Assembly (NCBI GenBank): GCA_030248135.1
Contig: JASANC010004997.1
Span: 1 to 64,000 of the forward strand
Origin: Theristus sp. LFF4_11
Taxonomy: Eukaryota; Nematoda; Chromadorea; Monhysterida; Xyalidae
Direction: 5' to 3'
DNA: 64,000 nt
Positions 2,924 to 26,835 of the stretch are shown in pieces (positions within the stretch are counted from its first letter, which is position 1; every line of letters begins with the position of its first letter). The notes beneath the pieces were generated by a model. The model did not search any database. It was not told where the DNA came from and was given only the letters and a program-made list of their open reading frames with translations. The position numbers and the translations under genes are program-made.

Positions 2924-4088
2924 TTATTGGCATTGTGTACGCACATTTGGTCCTGGCGGCCCACTACGGCCCGGTTCTCCTGGTCGTCCTGGTTGACCTG
3001 GCTGCCCTGGCGGACCTGGACGTCCTGGGGTACCGCGATTGCCGACGTTGCCTGGTGGTCCCGGTGGGCCTTTAGATCCTCCCGGTCCCGGGGGTCCTTT
3101 CTGTCCTGGGTCGCCTTTTCCACCCTCTGTTCCATTCTCTCCCGGTGGTCCTGATTTAAGATTTTGGTCCCGTTATACAATGTAACTGGTGCGTCGCATA
3201 GTTTAAATGGAGTTAGTAACTGAGGTACCAGGCTGTCCTGTTGCTCCTGGAGATCCATTGTCGCCTCCTTGTCCCGGAGGCCCTGGTCTTCCGGGTCCAC
3301 CCGGTCTCCCCGGTGATCCGTTGTTGCCACGTCCTCCTGGTGAGCCCTGAAACATAATCAAGATGCGTGTTCTTTGTTCATATTTTTTAAAGTGATTTTT
3401 AGTTTTGTATGATTGCAACTGACTGGTTGACCACGATTGCCTGGTGGACCGGGTCTGCCTGGTGGGCCACGACGACAGACGCGACAGCCTCGCTCAGAGA
3501 CAGTGACGGCCGGCATGGTGCCGTCAAGTCCACGGGTGCCATCAATGCCACGATCGCCCGGCGCGCCGTCCTGGCCCGGATCGCCTGGACTGCCGGGGCG
3601 ACCAGGTGGACATCGGTTTTGCTCGTCGCACACTGCAATCACAACAAAACTCTATTTTCCAAATTAAGATTTTTTTGTTTTTATACCTGTCTTGGTGTAT
3701 TTATCATACCCATATTCACAAATTGCCGAACAAGGTTCAGATCAGAGACAAACCGCGGAAACTTACCGCATTGGGCACCGAATGCTTGGCGGGTCTTGCG
3801 TGGACGCGCCACCGGCACAAACAGGCCTTCGCTAGATCCATCCGTTTTGAAATGGATCTCCGTCCAGACACTCTAAATACCCATAGTCTACAACATAGCA
3901 ATCCGATTTTCTTTGTTAAAATAGAGATATCTCACATCAGACAGCTGCTGGAATTCGTTCATGTCAACAGCGACCGCCGCATTGATGGCCTGAATCTTTG
4001 AGTAGAGAATGGGCACCCACAAAGCGCACGCAAGTACGGCCAGAATCGACAGGCCAATAGCCCCGTAAGCGGCGACACGAGCTGACAT
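2924..4088 (-). CDS. Nematode cuticle collagen, five exons, 270 aa
   Basis: Secreted structural collagen of the nematode cuticle. Exons on the minus strand are 4088-3936, 3872-3767, 3632-3424, 3346-3229 and 3150-2924; all junctions keep phase and give 271 codons including TAA. Residues 1-50 form the nematode cuticle collagen N-terminal domain, with a hydrophobic anchor ([20 protein letters not shown]) followed by [15 protein letters not shown] furin-like RPRKTR site lies near residue 80. A cysteine cluster ([10 protein letters not shown]) precedes Gly-X-Y repeats, which are broken once by a segment with CRVC and then run to a short end, GPNVRTQCQ. Donors are GTGAG, GTAAGT, GTCAGT and a less usual GTACCT; the last is fixed by the Gly codon it restores. 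The start at 4088 is preferred because a strong acceptor (TTTTTGCAG) lies 21 nt upstream. In-frame ATGs at 4139 and 4130 lie beyond it. The length is typical of the family. I cannot assign a col/dpy/rol name. Confidence 0.93.
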
Positions 4089-4108
4089 TTTGCACTCAGA
4101 CGGCTTGT

Positions 4109-4120
4109 CCTGCAAAAATT
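4109..4120 (-). promoter_or_regulatory. Probable trans-splice or 5'UTR acceptor of the collagen gene
   Basis: The minus strand reads AATTTTTGCAG and then GACAAG, with the AG at 4111-4110. The site is 21 nt upstream of the chosen ATG. No upstream coding exon joins to it, so it may accept a spliced leader or a 5'UTR exon. Confidence 0.5.
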
Positions 4121-4139
4121 GCTCGCACATATTGTACAT

Positions 4140-4956
4140 ACTACCCTGTACTGTTTCAAACCGTTTTTAAATCTTTTAGTTTTATTTTCAGAAAAAAGGG
4201 TGCTATGAAACAAGGTTTCAGCATCATTTATGTTTGACATTTTTAACGGTATTGAACAAACTTCGGCGTAATTCGAAGTTTGCAATACATTGACAAACCT
4301 TATTTTATACGACCCATAAAAATGTTTTTTGTCTTCCAGAGAAACCAGTTTCAAAAAGTAGCCATAGCTGATTTAATTTGCTCACCTTTTTATTGGGGTT
4401 TTTCTAGCGTCAAATTAGGTTTTAAAAGAAAATTGAAAATGCTTATGTGCATTTTAAACGCATTTTTAAAAAACAAAACATGCTCCGTTGGTTTCATCTA
4501 ATTTTTTATGCATTTTCCGCTCACCTTCGTGTGATTTGATGTGTGTAAACCAGTTTCGTTGAACTTACGTGTGAGAAACATTGAAGTTGGAGGTACAGTA
4601 TGAAAAACGATTATGCAATATTGGATGAAGGAGCCTGTCCCATTTTTCCTTTTTACCCAAATGATGTGCATTTTGAGATTGTTTTGAAACTTGCTTATTT
4701 TATTCGCCAACAAAACAGGTCTCATTCTCTTATGTACGCATTCAATATATAAATGTATATGTAGATTGAAGATGTTGATCGAAGACCAATTTTATGCTTG
4801 TTGCGAATCAAACAAAATTGCGTTTTTTGTTATTTTTAACGGGTATGAAAATGGAAGGCATGCTGCTGATCAAAAAAATTTCTTTTTGATAATTTGAACG
4901 TGTATGACAGCGGAAAGCAGTTAATCAAAAAGATTGCTTTTTTGATAATTTGAATA
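4140..4956. other. AT-rich upstream region of the collagen gene, nothing recognised
   Basis: The probable promoter side of the collagen gene. I see no exon, no tRNA and no well-bounded repeat. Two related phrases ending in TTTTTGATAATTTGAA near 4880 and 4940 suggest a small local duplication. Confidence 0.35.
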
Positions 4957-5369
4957 CAGTCGAACTGAATAAAATATGGAACCAGCTGATTGGTCGGCCT
5001 AGGGGAGGCTGCTCACACTCCGCACCTTTCTTTTTTCGTGGAATTGGATTCTATTGAAACGTGTTTTTTTTTAATGAGTGTGAATATCCAGTACCCTTTT
5101 CACGCTAAAAATAAACTGAAAATGTTAAAGACTGCAAAAAATTCAGATTTTTTTAAAACAACAGCTCAAAATGTATTTTTTGTTTGATGACGACGACGAC
5201 GTCATCGCTTAATTTTGCGTGTGAACTGAAAGACAAAAGCCTGAAAGGAGTGCGCTGTGTAGCCAGCTGAAGGGGGTTTCATTCCCAGCTGACCGATCGA
5301 CATGCGTCCGAAATTAAAAAAAAATGCGTTCCGATACTTTGCGGACGACGACGACACGACGACGAGCCC
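4957..5369 (+). mobile_element. One-armed copy of the CAGTCGAAC MITE family
   Basis: It begins TA-CAGTCGAACT and matches, with point differences, the left arm of the complete element at 24793-25583. Shared parts are the GCTGATTGGTCGG motif, the phrase about TGAGTGTGAA, and the GACGACGACGAC run near 5340. The right arm is missing, so this is a truncated copy. Confidence 0.65.
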
Positions 5370-5499
5370 AATTTTCACGGACCACCCAAAAAACATGAAC
5401 TTTTGCTCAAAAATCATGATTTTTGGTCTCTAAAGTCCATGATATAAGCTGAATATATGATAACTTGATATTCTGCATTGTAATTTCAAAAATTTTGCA

Positions 5500-8400
5500 G
5501 CAACATTTAGCGTTTTTCCTTCAAAATTTAAGCGAAAAAATATCATGGGTGGGGTGGGGGTGTGCACTCCCCACCAGAAATTTTTCTACAATAGTGCACC
5601 CCCCATGGCCGACGCTTGGGGGGATGTCACTGTACCATGACTGACAGCCCCCCCCACTGAAAAATTTTCGGCACCCCCCCCCCCCCACGTGACGACACCC
5701 CCCCCTCGAAAATTTGCTTTCGCCTTCGGTACTGGTTGCAAAAGCAACGGATAGGTTTTTAAAGACAATATCAATCACGAATATGTCACTCACGACAAAA
5801 CATTAACAAATGAAATAATCAGCGAAAATCACTCAACTCAAGAATGCCTGATCAAAACTGCTTCACATTCACAATCTCAGTGCACACAAAACACAAAACA
5901 AAATATGTAGCAAAATAATAAATAAAACTTAACAATAAATATTTTTTGGAGAGGGAGGGACGGGTTTGTCCTGTCCCCAAATCTCCCCAAATCAGTAGCG
6001 AAAGTGCGGGGGTGGGGGGGGGGGGTCCACCCAACCCCCCAAAGCCGAAAAACCTGCCCGTGCACGGGCAGATACCCGTGTACCCCCCTCCCCCCCCTTT
6101 ACCTCGACACGGGTACTAGACTCCCCCCACCCCCCTCCGCGAGAAAACACGGGATCGCATCCCCCTCACGGTGGTCAATCTCATCTCATTTTTTCCAAAA
6201 TACCGTAATTTTTGCATTTTTCTTGACGTTTGTGTCTATCCCTGCATAGATTTTGTTGTTTCTGACCAAACAAGCAGGTTGTTTGCACAAAATATTCTGT
6301 ATTTCACAAGAATTTCTGTGTTTTTCTAAGGCAAAAATTTGGTATTACCCGTGCGATCCCGTGCACCCCCCTCACCGAGAAGGCACCTGACACCCCCCTC
6401 TAAAATTTGGCAAACACCCCCCCCCCTCACCCAAGGTCCCGCTTTCGCTACTGCCCCAAATTACGTTTTCCGCATGCCTCCCAATCCCAATTTTCGAGGG
6501 GGGGGTATGGTACTGTGGGGGAAGGTAGGGTAAGGGGGAAAAATCCGGATTTTTTTTTAAATTAAAAAATTAAAAAATTTTTTTTTACAAGTTAGGTTTG
6601 TTCGAAGCGTCTCGTCAAGCTGAGTTCAGCTAGACTATTTTCAGAACGATCCGAAAAACTATAAGAGCGAAAATCGTGTTTTATTGAAATTATGTCCATT
6701 TCATAGAGGGAAAGTTGCATTTTCAACAGTAAAACAGGACAATTTTTGACGTGTACTTGTATATTGAACCGTTCTTAGTTGTTCCTTTTTAGAAAATTAC
6801 CAAAATTTGACTGTGTTCAAAAATTCCTGTTTGCTGTAGCTAAGTCGACAACCCCTGTCGACCCGGTCGCCCCCCCCCCCCACCAAGACACTTACTTTCA
6901 GGTTCAACCAGCTATGCTATCTGCCACATGGCGAGAGCCCACTCTTCAAATCATCGTATCGAAAACACGTACCATGACTCACATTTATGCATCGTTTTTC
7001 AGGATCTCGAAAGGTCGAAATTGCACTGTCTGCCACTGCAAGCGTAACTTCGTTGGTTGCTCGTTGCTGTTTCGCCTCGTGTCGTCAGCATGATCACACC
7101 GGTTTGTTGTTAAAATTGTTTCCGTGTTATTTGAGGTGAATTGAGAGGCAAAACACGAGACGTGATGTCGTCGGTGGGAAAATGGGGTCGCCGAAACCAA
7201 GTCTGAAATTTTCACCCTCCTCCCATATGAGTGGGGGTCATATGGTAAGTCGGTGGCTCCTCAGATGGTGATATTCGGACTCCCTGAAAAATTCTGAACA
7301 ACTTTGATTTAAAAAAAAATAAAAAAAAATTTTTTAAGAAAAAAAATACAATTTTTTTGACATCTCTAGGTGGACCCCCCCCCCGCACTTTCGCTACTGC
7401 CAGGAAACGTTGAGTGAGAAACTGAAGTGAAACATGGCGCATAGCACTGCTAGTGCTGAAGTTATCGAAATTGAAGATCATGGAGAAAATGGTGAAAATC
7501 AAGCTGACGAAAACTCAGAAAATGACACTGATTCTGAAACTGAAATTCGACTGCGACGCCGCAAACGCCGGCACGAAAGCACGAGCCGCGGCGCCTGCGC
7601 ACAGGTGCAGCAGGGGCAGGTCGACGACAACGACGTTATTTGAGGGAAATTGAGAGACAAAACACAAGGCACGATGTCGTCGGTGGAAAAATGGGATCGC
7701 CGAAGCCAAATCTGAAATTTTCACCCTCCTCCCATATGAGTGGGGATCATATGGTAAGTCGGTTGGTTCTCAGACAGTGATATTCGGACCAGGGGTCGAG
7801 CCCGATTTTTGGCGAATCCGAGGGGGGGTCGACTTGGTTGGGGGGGGGGGGCTCCCGGGCGAGACCGAAAATTCTAGGGGGGGGGGTCCCAGCGAGACCG
7901 AAAATTCTAGGGGGTGGGGGGTCGGACCAAAATTTTTTCTTGACGATGACATTGTCTGGGCAAAAAATTGCTAGTAGGGGTCGATTTGGTTGGGGGGGGG
8001 GTCCCGAGCGAGACCGAAAATTCTAGGGGGGGGGGGGTCGGACCAAAAGTTGTTGAATAAAAGTGCTAGAAACCACAGCATCCAGTCAAGGCCTCTCTCT
8101 AGTCATACATTTTGCTTTGATTTTCGTTCGGGTCGGGACATCTGAAAGCTAAACGAACGATACACGCTGCACGGGTGAGACTTGATATTGAAGTACAGTA
8201 TTGAAAACATTGACGTACAAAGTGGTAAATGTATAACAAAGTGGTACATATACAAAAAACATACAATATATATTGAGATACAAACATGCAGATAATAAAG
8301 ATACCTACAGATGAGAGAAATATAGAGATATACAAGAGAAAATGTCTCCATCGAAAGTCAAAATCAAAGGGGGGGGGGTGGTCAGACGGTCAGGATTTGG

Positions 8401-8560
8401 TAGGGGGGGGGGGGGGGGTTGGAAGGTCGAAATCGGGGAGAAGGGTCTGCCCCCCCCCAAATTCGAGAGGGGGGGTATTTTGACCCAAATTTGGGGGGGG
8501 GGGGGGTTTGCCCGGGTGGGGGGGGGGGGTAGGGTTAGGGGGGAAAAAATCCGGATTTTT
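5500..8560. repeat. Patchwork of dispersed repeats with long G/C runs
   Basis: Several repeat blocks that recur elsewhere in the window adjoin one another here. About 5500-5570 carries the CAAAATTTAAGCGAAAAAAT block (again near 20350, 21210, 26180 and 29060). About 6560-6960 and 8560-8890 carry a block with ACAAGTTAGGTTCGTTCGAAG and CCTGTCGACCCGGTCGC (again near 22.5, 23.5 and 30.0 kb). About 7200-7250 and 7690-7760 carry a block with CCTCCTCCCATATGAGTGGG (again near 26.48 kb, inverted). Between them lie runs of 8-18 G or C. There is no convincing protein-coding gene. Confidence 0.6.
7434..7642 (+). other. Short open frame, acidic then basic, inside a repeat
   Basis: A 69-codon frame opens with MAHSTASAEVIEIEDHGENG, is acidic for about 40 residues and then carries the basic stretch RLRRRKRRHE. 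It lies between two copies of a dispersed repeat. It could be the first coding piece of a decayed transposon gene, or chance. I do not recognise a family and no following exon was found. Confidence 0.25.
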
Positions 8561-8895
8561 TTTTAAATTAAAAAAAATTTTAAATTTTTTTACAAGTTAG
8601 GTTCGTTCGAAGCGTCTCGTCGAGCTGAGTTCATCTAGACTATTTTCAGAACGATCCGGAAAACTATAAGAGCGAAAATCGTGTTTTATTGAAATTATGT
8701 CCATTTCATAGAGGGAAAGTTGCATTTTCAACAGTAAAACAGGGCAATTTTTGACGTGTACTTGTATATTGAACCGTTCTTAGTTGTTCCTTTTTAGAAA
8801 ATTACCAAAATTTGACTGTGTTCAAAAATTCCTGTTTGCTGTAGCTAAGTCGGCAACCCCTGTCGACCCGGTCGCCCCCCCCCCCAAGACACTTA

Positions 8896-9540
8896 CAGGG
8901 TGGGCCAAAAAAAGGTTCCATTTTCAAACGGCTGTCACTGGCTGCTGTTTTAATATTATGAGCTGAAATTTTCAGCACTGATAAAACATGTGTTGCCATT
9001 TTACTGACAAAAATTTTTTTCGATATATAATTCCTAGCGCTCACTGTGGCAGATTTTCTAAAAAGCTCGAAAAATTAACAAATTTACTGAAATGAGTGCA
9101 AAAAAAAATTAGTATCAAAATGCGTGATTCAATTTTGAAACTGTTGCGAAAATGACAAATGGGTCTTTTTGGACACCCGTGATAGTTCAATTCATGCACT
9201 CAGAGTGGAAAGGTCTCACACTTGAGTTGCATTTGAGCACCTCGAGCGAAATTCTGATGTTTCACAACGGACTCGAGTCAGCAGCCATGCGACTGCGACA
9301 GAAAAAATTGTTCAGTTGACTTTTTGTTTTCTGTGTCTGTCTTTTTCTGTCTGTTAATGTGTTTCTTTTGAAAAGTTTTTCTGCGGTTTGAATAAAAACA
9401 GTGTTTCAGTTTGAGTTTTCTGCAGTTTCGTCATGGTTAAGTGGACAGCAGAACAACGGGTCTGGTGTGCTATCTGGTGGGAGCAATCTGAAAGTTTTTC
9501 TGCAGTGACTCGCCAGTTTCGCGTAAAATTCCATCCTGTC
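8896..9540 (+). mobile_element. Truncated mariner-type element, left end plus transposase start
   Basis: It starts at TA-CAGGGTGGGCC, the same terminus as the element at 14165-14972, and stays similar to it as far as the start of the transposase frame. From ATG 9433 it reads MVKWTAEQRVWCAIWWEQSE, the start of a DUF4817-type helix-turn-helix found in mariner-like transposases. Similarity stops near 9530 and no right end is present. It sits immediately upstream of the first recognised exon of the insulin-like gene. Confidence 0.7.
9433..9531 (+). pseudogene. Mariner-like transposase N-terminal fragment
   Basis: About 33 codons of an N-terminal helix-turn-helix, closely matching the longer fragment at 14425, with differences such as ACTCGCCAG versus ATTCGCAAG near the end. 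It is cut off well before any catalytic region, so it cannot encode an active transposase. Confidence 0.65.
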
Positions 9541-9623
9541 TAATAATGCCTTCTGAACTTTCGAACAAGTAAATACAACCAGTTACAGTTACTGTTAACC
9601 GTTAAAAACAACCTTTTTTGCAG

Positions 9624-12600
9624 ATTCTTCAAATGACGAAACACCAACAGGCGATCCGTATGCCGGCCAGAACCTCTGTGGTCCAGAGTTAAGGAAAGCA
9701 CTGAAGCGCGTTTGTAAAAGCACACTACCGGATGAACAGTTCCAACAGGTTGGAGAAGTTCAAAATCGCCGTTTTTAAATTCTTTATTATTGCAATCGTT
9801 CTGAAATGTACCGTTTGAAAAAATTACCATACGCTGGAGAAGCATGAAAATAGTAATCAGTAAAAATGTCATTTTTACGCTAGAGAAGACGTTTTACGTT
9901 GCAAAAGTCTTGTTCTCAGCTGAACCTCAATGAACTTGCGCCAAACTCTGTGCGTTTCTGTTGCTTGCAAAGTGGCGCCTGCTCTCGCGCCGTGTTGCTT
10001 CATGATTGCAAAGCGCTGGCGTCGGGTGAAACTCGAACGGCCGAAAGTCCACGAACGTCCACACCGAGGAAAGGTATAAACCGATAAATGATTTGTATTG
10101 AAACAGAGCAAAAATGCGGTTGAGTTGACGGTTTCTCCAACTTTTTCTACGCGCGGATACGGCACACACACACACACAAACATACAGCGGCACCACGCGT
10201 CGATTTACGATTCAAAAGTGAATGCCACCTTGGCTGCATCGTATAATGCTCATACAAACCTTTGCGACGCTCAAATGCCAAAAGTCGTTCAAACCTGAAA
10301 ACGATCAGTAAAACGGTTTAAAATAATCGATTCTAGACCTGCAAACAATTTTCAAGGTAATGTCAAATATTTTTTATTGAACTTTTTATTAAAAATACGA
10401 TTTTCACCTTTTAGAGCATTATTAAAAAATGTCAAATTTTTATTTTCAAAAAGTTGGCATTTTTGTTTTTTAAATCAAGTTTTTTTTGAACAAACATTAT
10501 TTTTTTTAACAAACCGTAGCCACACGATACTGTGTTGTAAACCGTCTACAGATTCAGGACTTCACAGCTAATCAACAGGCACTAGCAAAATTCAAAACAA
10601 CTTTATTCAAAATTTTTTGAGGTGAATCAAAGGCAAACGAAGACGATCCATACAAAGGAACCATCTGTGGTAATCCTCTTATGATGAAACTGGAGCATGT
10701 TTGCGCAACCGCACAACCGGAGGAACTGCGTCTGAGTCAACAGGTTGCATAACATGACACGCACCGTTAAAAAACCTTTTTGACTTATTTTCGATCACCC
10801 TATATTTCTCTAACGAAAGAGACTCGAGTGTTTCAAAAACAGCTTAAAAAACACCAATGAATCAAAGTATCATTTTCATGCACAGTGTACAGCATTGAGA
10901 TTTATAAAAATTGTGTTAGTCCAAAATGATGTCACTTGCTTTGACAACTGTCATGCGTAATTATAGTTTGGTTCACTTTTTCACGTATTTCCAGCGCTGA
11001 GCAAGTTTCTCAATTTGTTGCTCAGATATTTTTTTTGGAGTGCATGACACGCGCATGTTCTAGAGCGTATTACGTCAGTTCAGGCCAGCACTTTTGAAAA
11101 AACAAAGCTTCAGTGCACTTAGGAAAAAAACTTTCTTCAGCTGCCGCCTGTGCGTCTGGCAGAAGTTTGTTGTAATCAGCATAATTGCACTCGCGACATA
11201 TTGCTTCGTAATTGTCGACGGCGTGCGATTGGTGAAACTCGCACATCCGTCACCGAAACGCCAGAAGACGACTCGATTACAGGTTGAGTTTGGGATACAG
11301 AAAAATTTCGTCAACAACAAAACACTGCGTCTGTTTTTTTTGCGAGTGTCACTGGAATAAGCATCACGGCCAGGAAACAGAAATTTTGGACAAACAATTG
11401 CCTTTTCTGATGCTTTTAAATGTTTTAAACCCGTTTTTAAGGGTAGCAGTAAAGAAAATCCTTGAAAACTTTTATGCCAGGAACAAGTAATATTTTTGAA
11501 AAGCCTTCATTCGGTGTGCGTTTTTTTTCGTTGAAATCGAAATCCGTGTGGCCACCCGCGCATCCATTGTACCTGCGGAAGGAATCATGAAAAAGAAAAA
11601 CCTTTTAATTAAACAGAACCGCGAACAACGCCGCCGAGCAATACATCCCCGTGCTGGGAGGCCGTAAAGGAAATTAAAGGAAAGAAGTGCGGCGAACAAT
11701 TCAGTCAGTTGCACCGACGTGCGTGCAAAACCACCGACGGGAGAACATTATATGCTCCGGTTGGTGGTGAACTGAAATTTGAAACGCTTTGTACCAGTAA
11801 GTCTGTACCGTATTACCTCTATTAAACCCCCCCCCCAAAAAAATAAACACCCACCCCCTCGACAAGTTTCCAAATAATCCCCCCCCCCAAAATAATCCCC
11901 CATGGGGGATTATTGGAAACCTGTTTGAAACACATACCAGCGAATTCAGTGGCTGGTTGCAGTGAAAATGATGAAATTGTGCTACCAAAGGCCCCAAATG
12001 GATGAGTTAATGGTAATTTCATTACAAAAGGCTGTTGTAAAAAGAAATTTCTATGTAGAGTAGAAGTTTCTGCGACTTCCTTCCTGCCATGGAAGGTATT
12101 TTTGCTATTTTGCCCACCCCTAAAAATGGTTTCCAAATACCCCCCCCCCCAAAAAAATACCCCCCCCCCAAAAAAAAACAAACCCCCACCCCCAGAAGTC
12201 GCTGAAGAAATAAACCCCCACGGGGATTTATTAGAGGTAATACGGTATATTCCAAAACTCTTTCCACCCCATACTTCATTCCAAAATCGCATTCCATCCG
12301 AGATCCATTCGAAAATCTTGTTTGACCCCTTTCTGCATTTTTTTCTAAATTTTGCATGGAGCAAAATTGGAATATGGAATTTGAACTGCATTTGAAATGG
12401 TGCGCGCACATTTTATTTCTGACATGATCTGGCGGCCGAAACCTTGCATGGCCGTAGTTTGCACGACCGAAGACTGTGCGGCCGTACATAGTGCGGCCGA
12501 AGATAAGTTCGCACAAATAATGAAATAATGAAAAGTACGCAGCAAAGTACGATATAAATGCCACATAGGGAACGAATGCCGCTGATTTATTGAACGTCTG

Positions 12601-15600
12601 CTGCGCAAAGGGGGATTGCTCATTCAGTTTGCTGCGTAACAGTTGCACACGAGCACGCAACGCGACGTTCGAACTTTGCAACAAGCTGCGACCGAGCAGT
12701 CACGTTTGGAAACGTCTCGCGGAATATATGGAAGGCAAAAAATATTGCTGTTTTTCTTTGCAAGCTCGGGAAAAATGCATAAAAAAGACCGGTGTTCCGC
12801 TGAACCACAGGAACCTGTGTGTGATGTTTTATTTTTTTGGCATCGCGTGATCGAGTGTTAGTTCACCTTTGTACAGCAAAAAAATTTTTTCATTTCATCG
12901 CCAATGATGAAAGTGCTGGCTGATTGAAATTTAAAAATTTTTGCAACGAGCTTTCTGAAATGATATTGTTGTAAGATGATCGGTCCTTTTCTTCCGAGGT
13001 GACACTGCAAAAATACCACACACAATACGAATCGATAATTTCCCATTGTTGTTCTTTTTCCTAAAAGTTGAAAATTTTGAAACTTTTACTACAGCCCTAC
13101 AGAGGAGTGATGTCAAGCTGCGCATGAACACGAGCATGGTTGCATCGGATGGCTTGACCGGCAACGTGACGTATTACTGGAGCAAACCGTTTAATCCCGA
13201 CACCTGGGCGGAACAGCTTCCAGCTAATGTGTCGGCGGAATGCTGCATCGATTTCAACTGCACTGACGCGGGCGTTGGCGTTCTCGGCTACTGCGCCACG
13301 TCGGTGCAAGGTTGGCGAGCTCATAATGTGTAGAAAGACACACATCTTGCATAGAAGGGCGCGCTGCCGCTCAATCGCTAATCTACGTTAAGCGCCAGTC
13401 ATGGAGGTTGAAGCGCACTGACGCGCTTCACTTTGCTACACATTCACGAAGCAAAAAAAAAAACAGCGCGCTTCAGCGTGCGTCAGCGCGCTTCAGTTTT
13501 GTAGCATATGCGCATTCATGGACGCGCGCGCTGAAGCGCGCTGACGAGCTTCATCATGAATGAAGAAATGAAGCTGCGTCAGCCGCTGCGGCTTTTTAGG
13601 TTTTTTGCCCAGTCACGAACGCGCGCGCTGAAGCGCGCTGAAGCGCGCTATCATGAATGATGAAATGAAGCTGCGAAAGCCGCTGCGGCATTTGATGTCC
13701 GGACATCAAATTTGTGTGTGCAAAATCACTGATTGTTGAATGAATGCATGAATGGGCCTATAGCTAGCACTGTATGTTCAGAATTTGTTTCTAACGAACA
13801 GTTTTGTCCACACTTTTTTATCCGTTCCCAATACACATTTTATAAGATCTGTTTTCGTTTACACAGTCTCAAACTCTATATCATACACAACTCGTGGCTG
13901 ATTGGTTGGTGACCTGGTGTTGAATGGATGATGTGTAGAGGATCGCGCGCCTTGAAAAGTTTTCAACAAAACAATTAAGATGGTCTTATAAGCAGCAGCC
14001 GTCCTACGAACCGAACTTTATTTGGCTTTATTTGTATAGTTGCCACGGTAACCGTAAATTACCGTAAACCGTGGGCGGTACGGTTTTACCGTACCGTACC
14101 GTCACCGCACCGCTCGATTTTTCGAATGACCAAACCGTACAAAACCGTACCGTCATCAGAAATAATGGGTGGGCCAAAAAAAGGTTCCATTTTCAAACTG
14201 CTGTCACTGGCTGGTGTTTTAATATTATGAGTTGAAATTTTCAGCACTGATAAAACATGTGATGCCATTTTACTGACAAAATTTTTTTCCGATATATAAT
14301 TCCTAGCGCTCAGTTGACTTTTTGTTTTGTGTGTTGCTCTGTCTGTTAATTTGTTTGTTTTGAAAAGTTTTTCTGCGTTTTGAATAAAAACAGTGTTTCA
14401 GTTTCAGTTATCTGCAGTTTCGTCATGGTTAAGTGGACAGCAGAACAACGGGTCTGGTGTGCTATCTGGTGGGAGCAATCTGAAAGTTTTTCTGCAGTGA
14501 TTCGCAAGTTTCGCGTAAAATTCAATTTGGGTCGCCACGAGGATTCGCCAGCCAGGAAGTCCGTTCTTTTGTGGCACACCAATCTGTTTGAGCATGGCAA
14601 CGTGTTTTACCGAAAAAGTGAATCCGGTCGACCATCGATTGCTGCTGCATTTAAAGACACTGTGGTCGCAATGTTCACGCGCAGTCCAGCAAAATCGACG
14701 AGGCGAGCTAGTTTGGAATCCAGCCGCTGCCGGACGAGAACCTTGATGATGATTTGGATGTCTATGAGCAATGATTCGTTGTGAAACTCTTGGTTAAAAA
14801 ACCGTTTTTTTTAATTTGGGAATTTTTAAACATTATGCTGTGAAACTGAATCTACTTGACCAAACTGGATTAAAATTTTGTCAGACAAATGGCATCACAT
14901 GTTTTATCAATGCTGAAAATTTCAGCTCAGTGACAGCAGTTTGAAAATGGAACCCTTTTTTGGCCCACCCTGTACAATTACCGTACCCGTACCGTAACCG
15001 TACCGTACCGTAAAATTTTTTGGCAAGCCGTACCGAAACCGCCCGTATTTTTTCCAAAATCGATTCCAAAACATTCCAATCCTAAATCCGTGCATCATTA
15101 TTCCTTGGGAAAATGGCATTTCTTGCAGCATGCACCAAGAGTTGCTGGAGGAAAGGTTTTGTGCGGACGTACACCAAGTCGTGCGTTGAGAGCAAAGATC
15201 AATGCCGGTTAGTCGAGAAGATTTACCGGTATTTCAAAACTACAGTTATGAGGCCTGGCCCGTTCATAAGCCGCTGCGCTAAATCTAGCGGAGTGTCTCC
15301 GCGCGGAAAACCATTTTTTGCCAATAGAACCATCCAATTTATAAGGTTGAACTTGTTTACAAACACCTATGTAATTCTGTTTTTTCTGCTGACCCCATTG
15401 CAGACGTTTTCATAGTGCGACTATCGTTACAGCCATACTGTATGTAGGCACGCGCAATACCGTATATATTTTTAGTCGAAAGGCTGTAGGAAAACGTGAG
15501 AAAAACACCTACGTCGTTGAAAAAGATTCGTTCAGAAAGGAAATAGTCCTTGTCGCGTTTATTGTGGTTAAGGAAACCCGTTTATGCCTGACGTATGCGG

Positions 15601-16774
15601 ATGCGCATACAGCATGTCACGTCACGCCACGTCACGTCACGTCACGCCACATCACGTCACGCCACATACCGTTGATACAGACCTCTGCATGTACGGCACG
15701 TCACGTCATGACAGGTCTCGTGTTATTGCATGCTGCCGTTCATACTGTACCTGACGTATGTAGACGTACGTGGACGGTATAAACGGGCCTATACAATGCA
15801 AAAAAACTTGGAATAAACTGATTTTTTTTTCAACAGCAATTCATAATTTTTGAGCACTAAAAATTTGCATTTTATATGACCTCCACAGAATTTTTCAAAT
15901 AAGGGCGTCTTATATGCAAAACGTTACGGTTGTTGACGTTGATATTTAACGTTACATGACAGGGTTTACTAAAAAACGCTGTGGGTCAACTAACGGAACA
16001 TTCTACATTTTTTGCTTAGTGTCCAGCAACGATCCAATGATGTGCCGTTAGACTTAGCCGTGCTGTTCTCAATGGCGCGCACACTGGAGGGTCGAAATAG
16101 CAGATGCTTCAGAACACTTGACGGCAACTTTACGTGTTTATGCATGAGGGAATACCGTAGCTCCGTTCCGTGCAATCAAGCGAATGAGGGAGAGATGTTC
16201 GCATCGGCGGGCATGACTAGATTGGGCGGAGTTTGTTTACATTTTCAGTGTTGGCTTCTTGCTGCTACCTACTATCAGAAAAAGAAACTAACAGACTTGC
16301 TACACCTGCAGGACTGCTTTGAACACTGTGAATACCGGTAAATAGGTATTCGATCTAAAAACGTTTATACCAAACTGTTAGTTTTTGGAACTGATTTTGA
16401 AATTGGAATAGAATGAAATATGGCGTGAGATTTGTTTGACCCGGATTTTAGCATGGATTTTGATATTTTTTGAACGAGTGATAAATCGCTAGATATTTTT
16501 TGCTCCCTACCCAAAGACTTGTTGTTATTGATTATTAAATAGAGCAGCACTAGTTTGGTTCATCAAAACCGTTCTATTTTCTAGAAGCATGCACGCACTT
16601 TTACAGTTATGGGTAGTGCCATTCAACGAGGTTTTGGAAAAGGATGTGAGCGAGTATTGTGGCGGTGACCGTGAGCAACGCATGAGAGCATTCTGTGACG
16701 ATTGGCAGTCGAAGGCGGACAAAAGCATGCGCGCCATGTTCTGTATGATCTGTGAAACTTTTTGGGATAATTAA
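9624..16774 (+). CDS. Multi-unit insulin-like precursor (alternating B- and A-chain exons), 5' end missing
   Basis: Predicted secreted precursor of several insulin-like peptides. Exons: 9624-9748, 9920-10073, 10622-10743, 11141-11282, 11617-11759, 12569-12791, 13095-13310, 15129-15244, about 16027-16234 and about 16617-16774. B-type exons enter in phase 1 and leave in phase 0. A-type exons enter in phase 0 and leave in phase 1, so they chain into one frame. B motifs (C-x11-C): LCGPELRKALKRVC, ICGNPLMMKLEHVC, CGEQFSQLHRRAC, and in the last exon CGGDREQRMRAFC. A motifs: CCLQSGACSRAVLLHDC, CCNQHNCTRDILLRNC, CCAKGDCSFSLLRNSC and CCIDFNC. Basic processing sites (PRK, CRRRA) follow A segments. The first two units match insulin spacing best. 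The exons after 12650 are more divergent and their boundaries less sure; 12569-12791 carries a second CC cluster. No signal-peptide exon was found; it should lie upstream of 9.6 kb. Several tandem genes rather than one precursor remain possible. Confidence 0.68.
11806..12247. mobile_element. TA-flanked MITE, TIR CCGTATTACCTCTA (copy 1)
   Basis: It begins TACCGTATTACCTCTATTAA and ends with the inverted form GAGGTAATACGGTA. The ends read TA-CCG and CGG-TA, fitting a TA target duplication. The interior is rich in C runs and A runs. It lies in the intron after the third B-type insulin exon. A second copy is at 58079-58490. Confidence 0.8.
13340..13700. repeat. GCGC-rich inverted-repeat cluster
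   Basis: Dense imperfect palindromes built on GCGCGCTGAAGCGCGCTGA recur at about 13400, 13480, 13530 and 13630. At 13695-13708 there is a perfect palindrome, GATGTCCGGACATC. GC content is far above the surroundings. It is probably one or two nested MITEs in the intron after the insulin-like exon ending at 13310. I could not fix its ends. Confidence 0.5.
14165..14972 (+). mobile_element. Internally deleted mariner-type element with matching TIRs
   Basis: The left end (GGGTGGGCCAAAAAAAGGTT and on) and the right end ending 14972 are inverted repeats over roughly 40 bp. The right flank is TA and the left flank AATA, consistent with a TA target. The element interrupts a degenerate TACCG-rich tract: TACCGTACCG-type repeats stand on both sides at 14045-14150 and 14980-15050. 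It encodes only the front of a transposase, so it is non-autonomous. Confidence 0.85.
14425..14784 (+). pseudogene. Mariner-like transposase N-terminal fragment (DUF4817-type)
   Basis: From ATG 14425 the frame shows MVKWTAEQRVWCAIWWEQSE, then SGRPS and later SPAKSTRRASLE, the order of a paired helix-turn-helix module at the N-terminus of mariner-like transposases. After that the frame runs into unrelated residues and stops. The whole DDE catalytic domain of about 200 residues is absent, which fits an internal deletion. A second reading of 14730-14775 in another frame gives an acidic tail, perhaps the original C-terminus. Confidence 0.75.
15571..15790. mobile_element. MITE-like element with CCCGTTTATGCCTGACGT ends
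   Basis: The left end AACCCGTTTATGCCTGACGTA and the right end ...GGTATAAACGGGCCT are imperfect inverted repeats. The interior holds a run of GTCACGCCACGTCACGTCAC-type repeats (15610-15665). It is related in style to the better preserved element at 43000-43192. It lies in the intron between the last three insulin-like exons. Confidence 0.55.
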
Positions 16775-17094
16775 TTACAGTAACACGGTCAGTTTGTAAG
16801 CGAAAAAAGAAACTTAAATTGACCCAAACGTTGAAATGTTTTCTGGTGGCTTGTGTTTTTTTTCACTTTTTTCAGGCAAACGAAATGTGGGGCTAAGGTT
16901 ATATAAAGCTAAGGCTGTGCGAAAGAAGGCGATTCCCGTCAGTGTTTTTCAGAAAACTCACTTTTTTGGATGATCACTATTAAACACGGGAGTCTCTTGG
17001 AAATTCACTGAAAACAGCCTAGCATTACCTTTTATTGTTTTTGCGCGTTGATTAATTGGCCATATTATTATTATTAATTAAATACAGGGTGGCC
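16775..17094. other. 3' flank of the insulin-like gene
   Basis: No exon or well-bounded repeat was recognised. The stretch is AT-rich and ends at the CAGGGTGGCC terminus of the next transposon. Confidence 0.35.
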
Positions 17095-17222
17095 AAGAAA
17101 CTACAGGATTTCAAACTGCATTGTCTCGCGTCTGGTTTGAGGTGTGTCGGTCGCATTTTACATTTTACAGAACTGTAAACTCGCATTTTTAAAAGTTTTT
17201 ACAAACTTTTTCCTTTTTAAAA

Positions 17223-17488
17223 TACCGTAAAGTCTTGCATATAAGGTCTCCTTATATAAATTTGAAAATCAAAAATTTCTGAAAAAAGTAAAATTTCGTG
17301 TGACAGCCTTATAAGTGGGAGGAGGTCTTATAAAGCGAACATTAGGAATTCCGGGCCTTATAAACGGGATAGGTTTTCGACCATGTCAAAATTTTGAATT
17401 TTTTGGTTTCCCGCCGTGTGACACTCCGCCCACTTTTGGGTGGGGGTCTTATAAGTGGGAGGAACCTTATATGCAAGACTTTACGGTA
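17223..17488. mobile_element. TA-flanked MITE with 25-bp perfect TIRs
   Basis: The ends are exact inverted repeats of 25 bp starting TACCGTAAAGTCTTGCATAT and ending at 17488. The terminal TA plus CCGTA resembles the 11806 family, but the sequences differ after that. A related half-site lies near 15900-15935 (CTTATATGCAAAACGTTACG). There is no coding capacity. Confidence 0.8.
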
Positions 17489-17917
17489 GTTTGTTTTTTT
17501 ACATTTTTTGAAAAAAGGAAAAATACATTTTTAACTGTAAGGACGTTGTGCAAAGAGTGCAACACTAGGTACCTTTCATTCACATTTACAAGACATTTAA
17601 CGCAACTGAATGCACTGCGAACAAACCGATATTGAGATTTTCAGGAAAATCTGAAAAAAATTGAGATCCCTGTGGGGGTTGGGGGTCTAGTGAAACCCAC
17701 CCCCCTAAACTCGGGACCCCCCACCCGTGGGGAACCCCCACTCCCATACCGACTCGGCCCCCACCCCGTCCCAAAATGTTCCGAAAATCACAAACTTTTG
17801 TTCAAAAATCACGATTTTTTTCAATAATCACAATTTTTGTTCAAAAATCATGATTTCTCGGTTCCCAGGTCCATAATATGCACTAAATTTGAGGTTATTT
17901 AATCTTACAAACAACTA

Positions 17918-18182
17918 CGGAATGGCCGAGTAAACATGGCAGTTTTTTTTCAGGGTGCAAGGAGTGCGCGAAATTTGACTGAAAGAAAAAAGACGTTCAG
18001 AAACCAAATTGTGTGCCAAGTTTGACGTGTTTTTTAAACTAATGGATTCTTCGTGCTATTATGTTCATTTCTTTTCCCTTGCACACATGATTAGGAATTT
18101 TGTTGGCATTTTTGAAAAAGTCAACCTCTAGTCTACGACGGATCCCGCCTTGATGGGCTGCCTTATTTATTCAGCCATACTG
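17918..18182. mobile_element. TA-flanked MITE, TIR with TGGCCGA (copy 1)
   Basis: Its ends are TA-CGGAATGGCCGAGTAAAC and ...ATTCAGCCATACTG-TA. It shares the interior with the copy at 37225-37488 in opposite orientation, including CCCGCCTTGATG and TTTAAACTAATGGATT. Confidence 0.7.
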
Positions 18183-18879
18183 TACATGTATATTAGCGAA
18201 ATTTTTAAAATTTATAGCGTTTTTCATCAAAAAAATTTGGCACCCCTCACGGGTAGGTACCCCCTACCTAAAAGTGTCCGTCATCTTCGGTACTGAAATT
18301 TACTATTTTGAAAAAATGTCAAAAAATATCAGCAGATACTGAAAAAAACATTAAAAATAAAAAAAGGGAACTTTAGTTTTGAAATGTTTTCAAATTTCGG
18401 CCTCATACTTCAAACCAAACGCGAGACAGAGCAATTTGAAATCCGGTAGTTATTTTTTGGCCCACACTGCATAACATCAAATCTTATTATTTACTATTAT
18501 TTAGTATTATAAACATTTTTTAAATTATTATAATCTTTTTTAATATGTGGTTTAATGTTTGGAAGAAACTATGAATTGGGTGTTCGGAGGTATCCTGTGT
18601 TATTAACGACAGTTGTCATATAAAAAATGAAGATAGTTGTTTTCTAGTCTACAGGGTGGGCAAGAGGTAGTCGGTCACTTTTTAATTGCCTTTAACTCTT
18701 CAACCGCTTTGCCAATTCTGTTGAAATTTAAAACGTAAAAACAAAACGGTCTGACTTAAATTTGTGAAAATTTTCACTATAATATGCCAAAGCCTTTTGT
18801 ATTTAGCGAAATTAATTTTAAAAATCCAGTTTTTCTATTTTTTTAAATTAAAGAATTTTAAAAAACCATTTACAACTGA

Positions 18880-19515
18880 ACTCTAAATTACAGGGAATCA
18901 GATGAATGGTTGGTGATTACCGTATGCAGGCTTTCTGTGCAGGCATCGGCATAGTTGTTCCAGAGCCGGGGGGGGGCGATATAGATAGCTGGAGCAAATT
19001 TTCCAGATAGATAGATAGCTGGAAAATTTGGGGGGGCACAGGGGGGGGCATGTGACTTTGGAGGGGGGGCGACCAAAATTTTAAAATTAGACAGATAGAT
19101 AGCTAAAACGCCAAAAAACTATAAAAACAATTAAATAATGCTGAAAGTACGCTAAAAATCAAGTGCAAACGCGTATTTTACCTAAAATCAACAAAATTTT
19201 CAAGAATTTCGAGCAAAAATAATCAATTTTGGTCAAAAATTGGCTCATTTTCTATGTTCGAAGACAAATTTTTTTGATAGATAGCTGGCAGAAATTTTTT
19301 TAGATAGATTTTTAGAAATAGCTAAGCGAAAAAACTTCTCTGATAAAGATAGATTCGAAAATTTTTTTTGGGGGGGGGCGCCCCCAGCCCCCCTCCCCCC
19401 TAGAACAACTATGGGCATAGGCATTGCTGTGGGGGCGGAGTTTGGTTGCGTTGTAAGCATATACCGAAATCACCAACGAATCAGCTGATTCCCTACAATT
19501 TTGAGTTCCACTGTT
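18880..19515. mobile_element. Interrupted MITE (TIR near GAATTTAGAGTTC / GAGTTCCACTG)
   Basis: The left part at 18880-18941 (GGTTGGTGATTACC...) and the right part at 19422-19515 (...CACCAACGAATCAGCTGATTCC...GAGTTCCACTG) are the two halves of an element related to 35519-35688. They are split by the hAT-like MITE at 18950-19413, so this is the older insertion. Confidence 0.6.
18950..19413. mobile_element. hAT-like MITE, 8-bp target duplication (copy 1)
   Basis: The ends are CATAGTTGTTCC... and ...GAACAACTATG. The flanks are GGCATCGG on the left and GGCATAGG on the right, an 8-bp target duplication with one change, the hAT hallmark. The interior contains repeated GATAGATAGCTGG and long G/C runs. 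It is 464 bp with no coding region. Confidence 0.82.
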
Positions 19516-21842
19516 CTACACCCCACCCTTCCCAGTCCCCAGCCCCCATCAGGATCAAAATTATAGACAGTGACACCCCAAAAATTTTCCCGGAATACTT
19601 CAAAATCATAGATTTTTGTGCAAAAATCATGATTTTTTTGTCTCTAAAGTCCATGATATCTATAAGCGAGGGTTAAACATAAAAATAAAATCCTGATTTT
19701 TTGAGTAAAAATTATTGCTGACCGCCCTGCCCACCTGCCCGCAAAGCTTCATTATGATACGCACGCATAGGGTTGCAAAAAACAAAAATCGTCATTTTTG
19801 GTTAAAATTTTTTTTTAATTTCAAAAATCAAAGTTGGGCTAAATCATCATCAATAGCTGGGGGGGGGAGTTCGAAGAACCACATTTGATGTGCAATCGCC
19901 TCCCGAATGACTCCCGTATGGCGGAACTTTCCAGATTTTGTTTGGGTGACCTCATTTACCCCATTTATGACCATTCATAACCATTTACCCGCTTTCGCTA
20001 CTGCCCCGACCCACCAGTACCGTGGGCGGGGGGGTGGAGGGGGGGTACATCCCCCAGAGCACCAGAGACCGTCGGGTGGGGGGGGGTGGGGGGCACCGTG
20101 CCACCCCACCTAAAACCGGGCACCCCCCCCCCCCATCGGACCCCCTCCCTCGAAAATTTGGCCGACACCCCCCACACCCCCCATGAAATTTTGTCTGGCG
20201 GAGACCCCCCAAAATTTTCGGCACACCCTTAAATTTTTTTCGAAAATCATGATTTTTTGTCTGTAAAGTCCATAATATAAGCTGAATATATGATAACTTG
20301 ACCATCTTCATTGTAATTTCAAAGATTTTGCAGCAAAATTTAGCGTTTTCCTTCAAAATTTAAGCAAAAAAATATCATGGGGGGGGTGGGGGGGGTGTAC
20401 CCCCCCACAGAAATTTTTGAAAAAATGCACCCCCCATGGGACGCCCCTGGCGGGGTCCCACGTTACCATAGGTTGGACCCCCCCTCACTTTTTGGTCGGC
20501 ACCCCCCCCCCCACGGCACCCCATACCCCCCCTTCGAAAATTTGTTTGGGCCCACGGTACTGCGCCCCACCCCCTCCCCTCACCCAAGGTCCCGCTTTCG
20601 CTACTGCCTAGAGTTATTTAAAATTTTAAAAGAAAAATTAAAAAAAAATTTCAAAAATCAAAGTTGTGCTAAATCAATTAGGGAGTTCGAAGAACCACAT
20701 ATGATATGCAAGCGCATCCGGAATGACTCCCGTCCCGTATGGCGGAACTTTGGAGATTTTGTTCTGGTGACCTCAATTACCCCTTTTCCAAACCGTTACC
20801 ATACCTCTTCTCATAGTTGTTCCAGAGCCGAGGGGTTGGGGGGGGCGATATCAGTACCGAAGACGAGGGGGGGTGGGGGGTACACCCCCCAGAGCACCCG
20901 AGACCTCCGCGTGGGGGGGGTGGGGGGGGGTCACGCGACACCCACCCCCCAAAACCTGACCCTGGACCATCCACACCCCCCCCCCCTCGAAATTTGCTGG
21001 ACACCCCCCCACCCCCCCCCTAGATGGACCTAAGTAACAGTGACACCCCCCAAAAATTTTCTCGGACCACCCAAAAATCATGAATTTTTGCTCAAAAATC
21101 ATGATTTTTTGTCTTTAAAGTCTATAATATAAGCTAAATATATGATAACTTGACATTCTTCATTGTAATTTCAAAGATTTTGCAGCAAAATTTAGCGTTT
21201 TTCCTTCAAAATTTAAGCGAAAAAATCTCATGGGTGGGGTGGGGGGTGTGCACCCCCCAGAAAATTTTCTTCAATAGTGCACCCCCCCATGGCCCACGCC
21301 TGGGGGGGGGGTGTCACTTTACCATGACTGACACCCCCCCCCACTGAAAAATTTTCGGCACCCCCCCCCCACGTGACGACACCCCCCCTCGAAAATTTGC
21401 TTTCGCCTTCGGTACTGATATAGATAGCTGAAGCAAATTTTCTAGATAGATAGATAGCTGGAAAATTTTGGAGGGGGGGCGCGGGGGGCCATGTGACTTT
21501 GGGGGGGCCGGTCAAAATTTTGAAATTTGATAGATAGATAGCTAAAACGCTAAAAGCTATAAAAACAGCAAAATAATGCTAAAAATACACTAAAAATCAA
21601 GTATAAACGCGTATTTTACCTAAAATTAGCGAAATTTTAAAGAATTATGGGCAAAAGTAGTCAATTTTGGTGAAAAATTGACTTATTTTATGTCTTCGAA
21701 GACAAAAATTTTCAGATACCGGTAGATAGCTGGCTGAGAAATTTATTTGGATAGATAATAGCTGGGCCGAAAAAACCTGTCTGATAGAGATAGATTCGAA
21801 AATTTTTTTTGGGTGGGGGGCCGCCCCCCCCCAGGTAGGGTT
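19516..21842. repeat. G/C-run repeat patchwork
   Basis: Blocks seen elsewhere recur here. The CAAAATTTAAGC-A-AAAAAT block is at about 20355 and 21215, each followed by CATGGG and a G run. A shared phrase TTCGAAGAACCACATATGAT lies near 20690, and a hAT-MITE interior lacking its ends is at about 21416-21830. Position 21021-21073 is an unoccupied counterpart of the insertion site at 27794. Long open frames such as 20377-21033 come from G/C runs and are not genes. Confidence 0.6.
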
Positions 21843-24385
21843 AGGGGCTTTGAAAAAAAAATTTTTATTTTTATTTTTTTTGTTTAAAAAAAAATTTAGA
21901 TTTTTTTTTTTCAAACTGAAAAAAAAATTTGAAAAATTTTTCTTCTACTTTGCGCTGAAAATTCGATTTATGGCATAATTTTTTGAAAGTTCAAACCAAA
22001 TTTTCTTCCCAACTTCTTTGTGTGCTTAGGTACATGTCATTATTTGGTCATTTTGACCGACGTACTCCATGTTTTTCGATTTGGATGACTTCTAGAGTCA
22101 ATTTTTAGCGTTGAAATGACTTAACTGAATTGAAATATCGTTTCAGAAATCGTTTTCTTGCAACTTAGAACATGTTTTTTCAGTCGGTAGGCCATGAGAT
22201 GAACATGATATTTTGTTGATTGGCGTATGTTATAGGTCTACAATGGAGTTCTGCGATATGTTGTTAAACAATTGGAGCGGAGATGTTGGTTAATACCACA
22301 TCACACGACCGTTTTTCAGATACCCGATAACATGGCCACATGTTAAAACTTGCGTGCTGAGCTAAACTAACGTGTTAAACTTGCGTCTGTCAGTTGCCCG
22401 TAACGTGATCGCGAAATCATGGTACGTGTTTTCGATACGATGATTTGAAGAGTGGGCTCTCGCCATGTGGCAGATAGCATAGCTGGTTGAACCTGAAAGT
22501 AAGTGTCTTGGGGGGGGGGCGACCGGGTCGACAGGGGTTGCCGACTTAGCTGCAGCAAACAGGAATTTTTGAACACAGTCAAATTTTGGTAATTTTCTAA
22601 AGAGGAACAACTAAGAACGGTTCAATATTCAGGTACACGTCGAAATTTGTCTTGTTTTACTGTTGAAAATGCAACTTTCCCTCTATGAAATGGACATAAT
22701 TTCAATAAAACACGATTTTCGCTCTTATAGTTTTCCGGATCGTTCTGAAAATAGTCTAGATGAACTTTTTTTCCCTAACCCTACCCCCAGGCCCCCCCTA
22801 GAACAACTATGCCTCTTCTACTGTTTTGACCCCCAAAACGTCACTCACTAATTGTCCCCAGCCCAAGTGAAAATACACATACCGGCTTGAAATTCGATCA
22901 ATTCTGATGATGCGTCGCGACGGCAGGACACGAAACGGCAACCAGACAACGTAACGCTTGCAAACGGAGCAGCTCGGACGCTCAAATTTAGATTGCGAGG
23001 CGAATCGTCTCGTCACCTTATCTGCATCGGAAATGGTAAGCCAACCTTTGGGACGCTCAAAAACTTCATCGCAGATGTTGTTGAAGCTTGAAATCAGTCG
23101 GTAAAACGGTCCAAAATCGACCGCTAAAGGTTTTACGAGGTAATATCAAGGAAAATTTTTGTTGAACTTTTAAAAAATTTTGCCAAAATTGAGGTTTTCA
23201 GAGCATATTAGAGGAAAATTTTTCGAATTAAAAAAATCGGCATTTTTGTTTTTTTTAATTACTTTAAAAAAACAAATTTTGATTTTTGTTTAACAACCCT
23301 ACTACTGCCCTACTTCCACTCAGTACCGAAGGCGAAAGCAAATTTTCGAGGGGGGGGCCTAGGGTTAGGAAAAAAAAATCCGAATTTTTTTTTTAAATTA
23401 AAAAAAAATTTTTTTTTAAATTTTTTTTACAAGTTAGGTTCGTTCGAAGCGTCTCGTCGAGCTGAGTTCATCTAGACTATTTTCAGAACGATCCGGGAAA
23501 CTATAAGAGCGAAAATCGTGTTTTATTGAAATTATGTCCATTTCATAGAGGGAAAGTTGCATTTTCAACAGTAAAACAGGGCAATTTTTCACGTGTACTT
23601 GAATATTGAACCGTTCTTAGTGGTTCCTCTTTAGAAAATTACCAAAATTTGACTGTGTTCAAAAATTCCTGTTTGCTGTAGCTAAGTCGGCAACCCCTGT
23701 CGACCCGGTCGCCCCCCCCCCCCCAAGACACTTACTTTCAGGTTCAACCAGCTATGCTATCTGCCACATGGCGAGAGCCCACTCTTCAAATCATCGTATC
23801 GAAAACACGTACCATGATTTCGCGATCACGTTGCGGGCAACTGACAAACGCAAGTTTAACACGTTAGTTTAGCTCAGCACGCAAGTTTTAACATGTGGCC
23901 ATGTTATCGGGTATCTGAAAAACGGTCGTGTGATGTGGTATTAACCAACATCTCCGCTCAAATTGTTTAACAATATATCGCACAACTCCATTGTAGACCT
24001 ATAACATACGCCAATCAACAAGATATCATGTTCATCTCATGGCCTACCGACTGAAAAACATTTTCTAAGTTGCAAGAAAACGATTTCTGAAACGATATTT
24101 CAATTCAGTTAAGTCATTTCAACGCTAAAAATTGACTCTAGAAGTCATCCAAATCGAAAAACATGGAGTACGTCGGTCAAAATGACCAAATAATGACATT
24201 TACCTAAGCACACAAAGAAGTTGGGAAGAAAATTTGGTTTGAACTTTCAAAAAATTATGCCATAAATCGAATTTTCAGAGCAAAGTAGAAGAAAAATTTT
24301 TCAAATTTTTTTTTAAGTTCAAAATTTAAAAAAAAAAAACAAAAAAAAATAATAAAATTTTTTTTTTCAAAGCCCCTAACCCTAG
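21843..24385. repeat. Large inverted repeat, arms about 0.95 kb
   Basis: Sequence from about 21843 to 22787 reappears in reverse complement from about 23352 to 24384, with a spacer of about 560 bp. Both outer edges read GGGGCTTTGAAAAA (or its complement) next to CCTAACCC, and both inner edges have CCTAACCC again. The arms include the block with CCTGTCGACCCGGTCGC. The spacer holds part of a third block, found complete at 26836 and 30547. Confidence 0.72.
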
Positions 24386-24399
24386 GGGGGCCGGGGGTG

Positions 24400-26120: not shown

Positions 26121-26835
26121 TGATGGGGGGGTGCACTATTGTAGAAAATTTTCTGGGGGGTGCACACCCCCACCCATGAGATTTTTTCGCTTAAATTTTG
26201 AAGGAACAACGCTAAATTTTGCTGCAAAATCTTTGAAATTACAATGAAGAATGTCAAGTTATCATATATTTAGCTCATATTATGGACTTTAAAGACAAAA
26301 AATCATGATTTTTGAGCAAAAATTCATGATTTTTGGGTGGTCTAGAGATGTCAAAAAAAATTTCCATTTTTTTCTTCAAAAAAAAATTTTAAATTTTTTT
26401 AAAAAAATCAAAGTTGTTCAGAATTTTTCAGGGAGTCCGAATATCACCATCTGAGGAGCCACCGACTTACCATATGACCCCCACTCTCATATGGGAGGAG
26501 GGTGAAAATTTCAGACTTGGTTTCGGTGACCCCATTTTCCCACCGACGACATCACGTCTCGTGTTTTGCCTCTCAATTAACTTCAAATAACACGGAAACA
26601 AGTTCAACAACAAACCGGTGTGATCATGCTGACGACACGAGGCGAAACAGCAACGAGCAACCAACAAAGTTACGCTTGCAGTGGCAGACAGTACAATTTC
26701 GACCTTTCGAGATCCTGAAAAACGATGCATAAATGTGAGTTCTCTGCTTCTATCTCACCTTAGCGGCATCGGAATTTGTTGAACTAGCCTTTGCGACGCT
26801 CAAGTACTTCAATGCGCGAGTCGATCATCACTCAC

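Follow-up and report, generated by a model that had tools for sequence, protein, structure and literature searches.

A candidate poly-insulin gene with three insulin-family units in series in the nematode Theristus sp. LFF4_11

A gene of the nematode Theristus sp. LFF4_11 probably encodes a poly-insulin precursor in which three insulin-family units follow one another in series, a reading of its sequence to which we give a probability of about 0.75. It lies in a 64,000-nucleotide stretch (the window; bases 1–64000 of the 180,255-base contig JASANC010004997.1), and our analysis centres on the + strand of 9624..16774, a region that an earlier annotation (the original prediction) had described as one gene with insulin-like B and A segments in series. 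Searches of the same genome covered the 159 Mb assembly of 3744 contigs. In the mechanism that we propose, the precursor would be secreted, and each of its three units would come from a two-exon cassette whose B exon runs from phase 1 to 0 and whose A exon runs from phase 0 to 1. Every unit would fold into an insulin of one chain, with three disulfides and an enlarged first A loop. Proprotein convertases would then separate the units; the RRR that follows unit 2 is the most plausible site, and an RK that lies between the first two units is a less certain one. The released peptides would act on the insulin/insulin-like growth factor (IGF) receptor pathway. The single transcript, secretion, cleavage and receptor action are steps that we infer.

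Three insulin-like units in one reading frame

Six + strand exons within 9624–12791 carry B-type (C-x11-C) and A-type (CC-x4/5-C-x8-C) insulin segments in alternation (Table 1). All six peptides named in the original prediction are present, in order, and the predicted phases hold for units 1–3. Joined at splice sites chosen by eye, the three units lie in one frame with zero stop codons between them. The same prediction had excluded start codons as well as stops from the stretches between units; ATG codons do occur in the frame, e.g. inside exon B2. Together with four further exons, and with phase 1 assumed at the start, the six exons yield 570 open codons to a TAA stop, including 43 cysteines. 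The splice sites were picked by hand, and the phase agreement is therefore partly built in. For example, the textbook GTAAGT donor of exon B3 at 11797 (phase 1) is incompatible with the A3 acceptor, and GTTGGT at 11760 (phase 0) was used. The A3 donor is one among 15 candidate GT dinucleotides, eight of which are in phase 1.

Insulins, IGFs and relaxins share a cysteine pattern of C-x11-C in the B segment and CC-x3-C-x8-C in the A segment. The expected cysteine spacing is present in part: units 1–3 each contain C-x11-C and C-x8-C and retain all six cysteines and the A-segment leucine, but the CC-x3-C part is replaced by a spacing of x5 in unit 1 and x4 in units 2 and 3. This first A loop had been singled out as unusual. 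Another insulin locus of the same genome, on contig C45 (CC-x4-C-x8-CC; locus L010, 4990–5253), also has the x4 spacing, so a widened loop exists outside the window gene as well.

These motifs are far more frequent in the region than resampling predicts. A strict A motif (CC-x3..5-C-x4-L-x3-C) has three matches in 9600–16800 of the + strand, compared with a mean of 0.007 and a largest value of 1 in 1000 first-order Markov resamples, and a strict B motif has two, compared with a mean of 0.002. Extending the scan to all 64 kb on both strands added no further match of either strict motif: A is confined to units 1–3 and B to units 1 and 2. The B segment of unit 3 fits just the looser pattern CG-x10-C, which has eight matches in the window; its four matches in the region (+) are less striking (null mean 0.34, maximum 6).

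Profile comparisons indicate that units 1–3 resemble insulins beyond their cysteine pattern. Using hhalign, we aligned a profile of the three units with a profile built from six further insulin units, which come from five loci elsewhere in this genome, and obtained a probability of 95.1, an E value of 3.4e-8 and a score of 41.3. Two sets of 100 shuffles, both with cysteine and gapped columns fixed and the second with invariant Gly columns fixed as well, reached maxima of 21.6 and 21.2, and none of the 200 scored as high as the observed alignment. Taken alone, units 1, 2 and 3 scored 25.8, 39.6 and 25.6, compared with maxima of 16.2, 21.4 and 24.5 over 40 shuffles each, a narrow margin for unit 3. 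With one open frame, a joint score well above the shuffle maximum and 0/40 shuffles as high for each unit, the description of three clear insulin-like units is borne out.

Unit 1 matched Pfam Insulin (PF00049) with an E value of 0.25 (12.8 bits, below the cut-off of 23) and unit 2 matched Pfam Ins_beta (PF03488) with an E value of 0.0038 (17.6 bits, below the cut-off of 21). Like these families, units 1 and 2 have the B motif CG-x2-L...VC, and the A segments have the CC..C-x8-C motif with its conserved leucine; unlike them, the A loops are x4/x5 rather than x3, and the scores stay below the curated cut-off. Searched against the PDB with a limit of E 10, the three-unit profile had three hits, namely an insulin-like growth factor with an E value of 0.046, a WhiB4 regulator with 0.13 and the B chain of INSL3 with 1. 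The genome-insulin profile matched 84 chains with E values of 1 or below (best 1.1e-8), and the best 60 of these 84 are all named insulins, IGFs or insulin-like peptides. Rfam gave no match at gathering scores.

Table 1. Modelled exons of the candidate poly-insulin gene and of the stretch downstream of it. Positions are those of the window; segment starts are the first positions of the insulin-like segments.
Exon	Position	Strand	Segment start	Phase	Content
B1	9624..9748	+	9674	1 to 0	Unit 1 B-type segment LCGPELRKALKRVC; acceptor ttttttgcag, donor GTTGGA
A1	9920..10073	+	9959	0 to 1	Unit 1 A-type segment CCLQSGACSRAVLLHDC
B2	10622..10743	+	10663	1 to 0	Unit 2 B-type segment ICGNPLMMKLEHVC
A2	11141..11282	+	11168	0 to 1	Unit 2 A-type segment CCNQHNCTRDILLRNC, RRR immediately after
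B3	11617..11759	+	11688 (from first Cys)	1 to 0	Unit 3 B-type segment KCGEQFSQLHRRAC; donor uncertain, alternative GTAAGT at 11797
A3	12569..12791	+	12599	0 to 1	Unit 3 A-type segment CCAKGDCSFSLLRNSC, then a Cys-rich stretch not recognisably insulin; 3′ end uncertain
U4	13095..13310	+			Open in frame, includes ECCIDFNCTDAGVGVLGYC; insulin origin not supported
X5 (tentative)	15129..15207	+			Cys-rich tail; basis phase fit only; not insulin-like
X6 (tentative)	16020..16337	+			Cys-rich tail, 318 bases open; basis phase fit only; not insulin-like
X7 (tentative)	16585..16774	+			Last exon, CGGDREQRMRAFC, TAA stop; basis phase fit only; not insulin-like

Probable cassette duplication and related insulin genes

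The units most likely arose by tandem duplication of the two-exon B+A cassette. Units 1 and 2 have in common a DPYxG before the B segment and a GETR after the A segment. The DNA of exons A1 and A2 is 73.8% similar over 61 columns (E 1.4e-4), and the two units have one short DNA match outside exons (E 0.011); the same DNA comparison of the other five pairs of segments gave no match at E 1. The cassette starts and finishes in phase 1, so tandem copies keep the frame, and a phase 1-1 cassette would offer a simple route to poly-insulins through duplication of an exon pair.

A second gene of this form is present in the same genome. On contig C492 (locus L008, 2554–6139), a signal-like exon is followed by two successive pairs of B and A exons; joined in frame up to a stop codon, they encode a two-unit precursor of 224 residues. 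The signal-like first exon, picked by eye, is 52 bases long (MVLIILLLTCSHFVAQI). The precursor matches Pfam Insulin with an E value of 1.2e-8 over two stretches. Like the window gene, the C492 gene has serial B+A cassettes with phase-1 borders and no stop between units. It differs in its two units, CC-x3-C spacing, extra cysteine near the end of both B and A, and signal-like first exon, and its cassettes, which run from phase 1 to phase 1, have phase 2 between B and A where the window gene has phase 0. With gaps excluded, the flanks of its two cassettes are 89–98% identical (143/160, 49/50 and 49/55). The B exons are identical at 84/118 positions and the core codons at 110/150 (non-synonymous divergence, dN, 0.31 and synonymous divergence, dS, 0.40 by NG86). 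Divergence is greater in the exons than in the flanks and extends to synonymous sites, so two explanations are equally likely: diversifying selection, or flanks that were homogenised or derive from repeats.

Other insulin loci of this genome include a relative on contig C3442, which has its own hydrophobic N-terminus; the 9.9 kb read there contains a single B and a single A segment. Further loci lie on C1974, C2562/C1213 and C45. C2562 and C1213 (L004 and L006) are short contigs with insulin genes that are near-identical by eye, and they may represent two haplotypes that the assembly did not merge. Searching the genome with PF00049 gave seven matches at E 10, three of them over the cut-off. 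Ins_beta gave none at E 0.001, a level at which the control had no match either; at E 10 there were six weak matches, none over the cut-off, and one control bacterium matched too. One of the six weak loci has an insulin B-like segment (L017, 1486, on C2958; FICGRRLFKRIIQLC).

The closest known parallel is Caenorhabditis elegans ins-31 (T10D4.4), which the original prediction had named as repeat-bearing. Its repeats are documented: three insulin repeats are described (PMC4714518), and the presence of repeats is called unique among that worm's insulins (PMC4714518, PMC3967928). As in the window gene, one gene contains three insulin-like repeats. The window gene has widened A loops and possibly a non-insulin Cys-rich tail, in which it may differ from ins-31. 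Among the literature matches listed, a set in which subscription papers were mostly outside the scope, there was no poly-insulin gene besides ins-31. A catalogue of A-chain motif variants is described in PMC6321970. The two insulin domains of PMC3599158 were considered as a precedent and set aside, as the term is used there in another sense. Two poly-insulin genes in one further genome would show that a form called unique to one C. elegans gene has recurred. With ins-31 already known, what stands out here is the probable recurrence of the poly-insulin form, its phase-symmetric cassette and the second gene on C492.

The 5′ flank and alternatives to a single functional gene

Several results weigh against a functional poly-insulin gene. 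None of the units reaches the Pfam gathering cut-off, and unit 3 has no Pfam insulin match, the sole family listed for it being Geminin (E 0.17). A PDB search with units 1–3 joined (254 amino acids) had no match at E 10. Searching a protein database with a 374-residue model returned 2546 candidates but none at E 1 or below, and a further protein-database search likewise gave no match at E 1; nematode coverage was not established for the database in either case. Phase fit guided the choice of several splice sites. The 5′ flank is repeat-laden, and its 4090–9623 stretch contains no identifiable signal-peptide exon. Finally, the B segments of units 1 and 3 themselves contain RK, KR and RR pairs, and a KK immediately precedes the first cysteine of unit 3, positions ill suited to clean release of the units. 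The sub-threshold Pfam scores would also suit a chance pattern of unrelated cysteine-containing open frames, an explanation that the strict-motif counts (A 3 versus 0.007, B 2 versus 0.002) and the 0/200 shuffles leave barely conceivable.

The signal-exon search considered single ATG exons only, judged by hydrophobic run, under a rule that combined such a run with a phase-1 GTA/GTG donor. An upstream signal-peptide exon, for which the original prediction had suggested looking, did not stand out: two ATG frames in 4090–9623 pass the rule (4480–4528 and 4794–4842), compared with a mean of 3.69 (range 0–13) in 200 resampled sequences, so that neither candidate rises above chance. Among the best 25 listed, ATG frames with a hydrophobic core and some phase-1 GT begin at 4322, 4439, 4480, 4794, 6987 and other positions. 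A strongly hydrophobic run also occurs in a frame at 2407; this frame was rejected as a signal exon, having no phase-1 donor and lying beyond an opposite-strand collagen gene. This collagen-like gene occupies 2890–4090 of the minus strand (about 2.9–4.1 kb), upstream of the insulin gene, and we take it to encode a nematode cuticle collagen.

Mobile-element ends (GGGTGGGCCAAAAAAAGGTTCC) occur singly at 8898–8919, upstream of exon B1, and as an inverted pair at 14167–14188 and 14949–14970 in the longest intron of the model.

A secreted precursor needs a signal exon and none was identified, which makes loss of the 5′ end the main rival explanation. The locus would then be a recent pseudogene, a former poly-insulin gene that lost its signal exon or promoter to repeat insertions while its exons stayed open. 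The absence of any signal exon above chance level fits this account, as do the mobile-element ends of identical sequence, one upstream (8898) and two in an intron (14167 and 14970). However, the modelled frame is stop-free in units 1–3, the six cysteines and the A-segment leucine are kept in each, and a short signal exon is easily overlooked, that of the C492 gene being just 52 bases. We consider a pseudogene unlikely.

The units could instead be individual insulin genes, of one unit each, that lie side by side; clustering is known for insulin genes of nematodes (PMC3967928). Here, however, the introns that precede units 2 and 3 yielded no signal-like exon, a result more in keeping with a single gene; the exons that end units 1 and 2 continue in frame to a phase-1 donor; and in the C492 gene one signal-like exon serves two units. 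We consider a cluster very improbable.

Proposed processing of the precursor and the downstream exons

In all of units 1–3 the stretch from B to A is free of dibasic and RxxR sites, so each unit of the poly-insulin precursor would be a single chain rather than a B/A pair. Basic sites in the model include the RK at residue 92, between units 1 and 2, and the RRR at residues 160–162 (with RNCR at 157–160), directly after unit 2. Cleavage at PRK and CRRRA, as first proposed, is possible. According to PMC3978837, EGL-3 cuts the C. elegans insulins examined at RR/KR and KPC-1 cuts at RxxR, and the tested beta-group insulins finish as integral B-A peptides. The products of the window gene would likewise likely be convertase-released single-chain insulins, with incomplete release of the units possible.

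The C492 gene has no dibasic or RxxR site between its two units, and all of its sites lie after unit 2. With this linker, and with RK only in the linker of window units 1 and 2, covalent two-unit products become conceivable. We regard it as distinctly unlikely that the tandem insulins of this lineage are not fully cut apart and act as covalent two-unit insulins. If true, such insulins could engage the two halves of a dimeric receptor simultaneously or link one receptor to another, and the number of units could evolve freely by way of phase-symmetric cassettes. The two genes thereby raise the question of whether such a precursor is the source of multiple hormones or of a single multivalent one with covalently joined units.

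The original prediction had added one or two diverged units to the three clear ones and had extended a single gene to 16774. The diverged units found no support downstream of unit 3. Unit 4 (exon U4) had no Pfam match, and its profile score was matched by 11/40 shuffles in the comparison with genome insulins and by 6/40 in that with the window units. The stretch directly after unit 3 was tried as an extra unit and rejected: its 0/40 against the window units was owed to ten residues common to a profile row, and once these were removed 21/40 shuffles scored as high for the piece ending at 12819 and 25/40 for that ending at 12791. Against genome insulins the corresponding counts were 3/40 and 5/40.

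For the pieces of the Cys-rich tail (X5–X7), 17 to 38 of 40 shuffles scored as high, and the tail matched Pfam EGF_MSP1_1 with an E value of 0.014. Judged by sequence, the exons in 15129–16774 are not recognisably insulin. Units 1–3 end at about 12791, and the remainder to 16774 shows no recognisable insulin. X5–X7, and perhaps U4, may belong to a different gene, with the precursor ending near 12.8–13.3 kb, an alternative to which we give somewhat less than even odds. X5–X7 do not resemble insulins or units 1–3, joining the tail requires splicing of a 1.8 kb intron that contains a mobile element, and the U4 frame, if extended, runs into a stop at 13331. On the other side, phases can be matched through to the TAA stop, and the tail is Cys-rich as well. 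Further downstream of the insulin gene, a long repeated poly-G-rich stretch spans 17000–31300.

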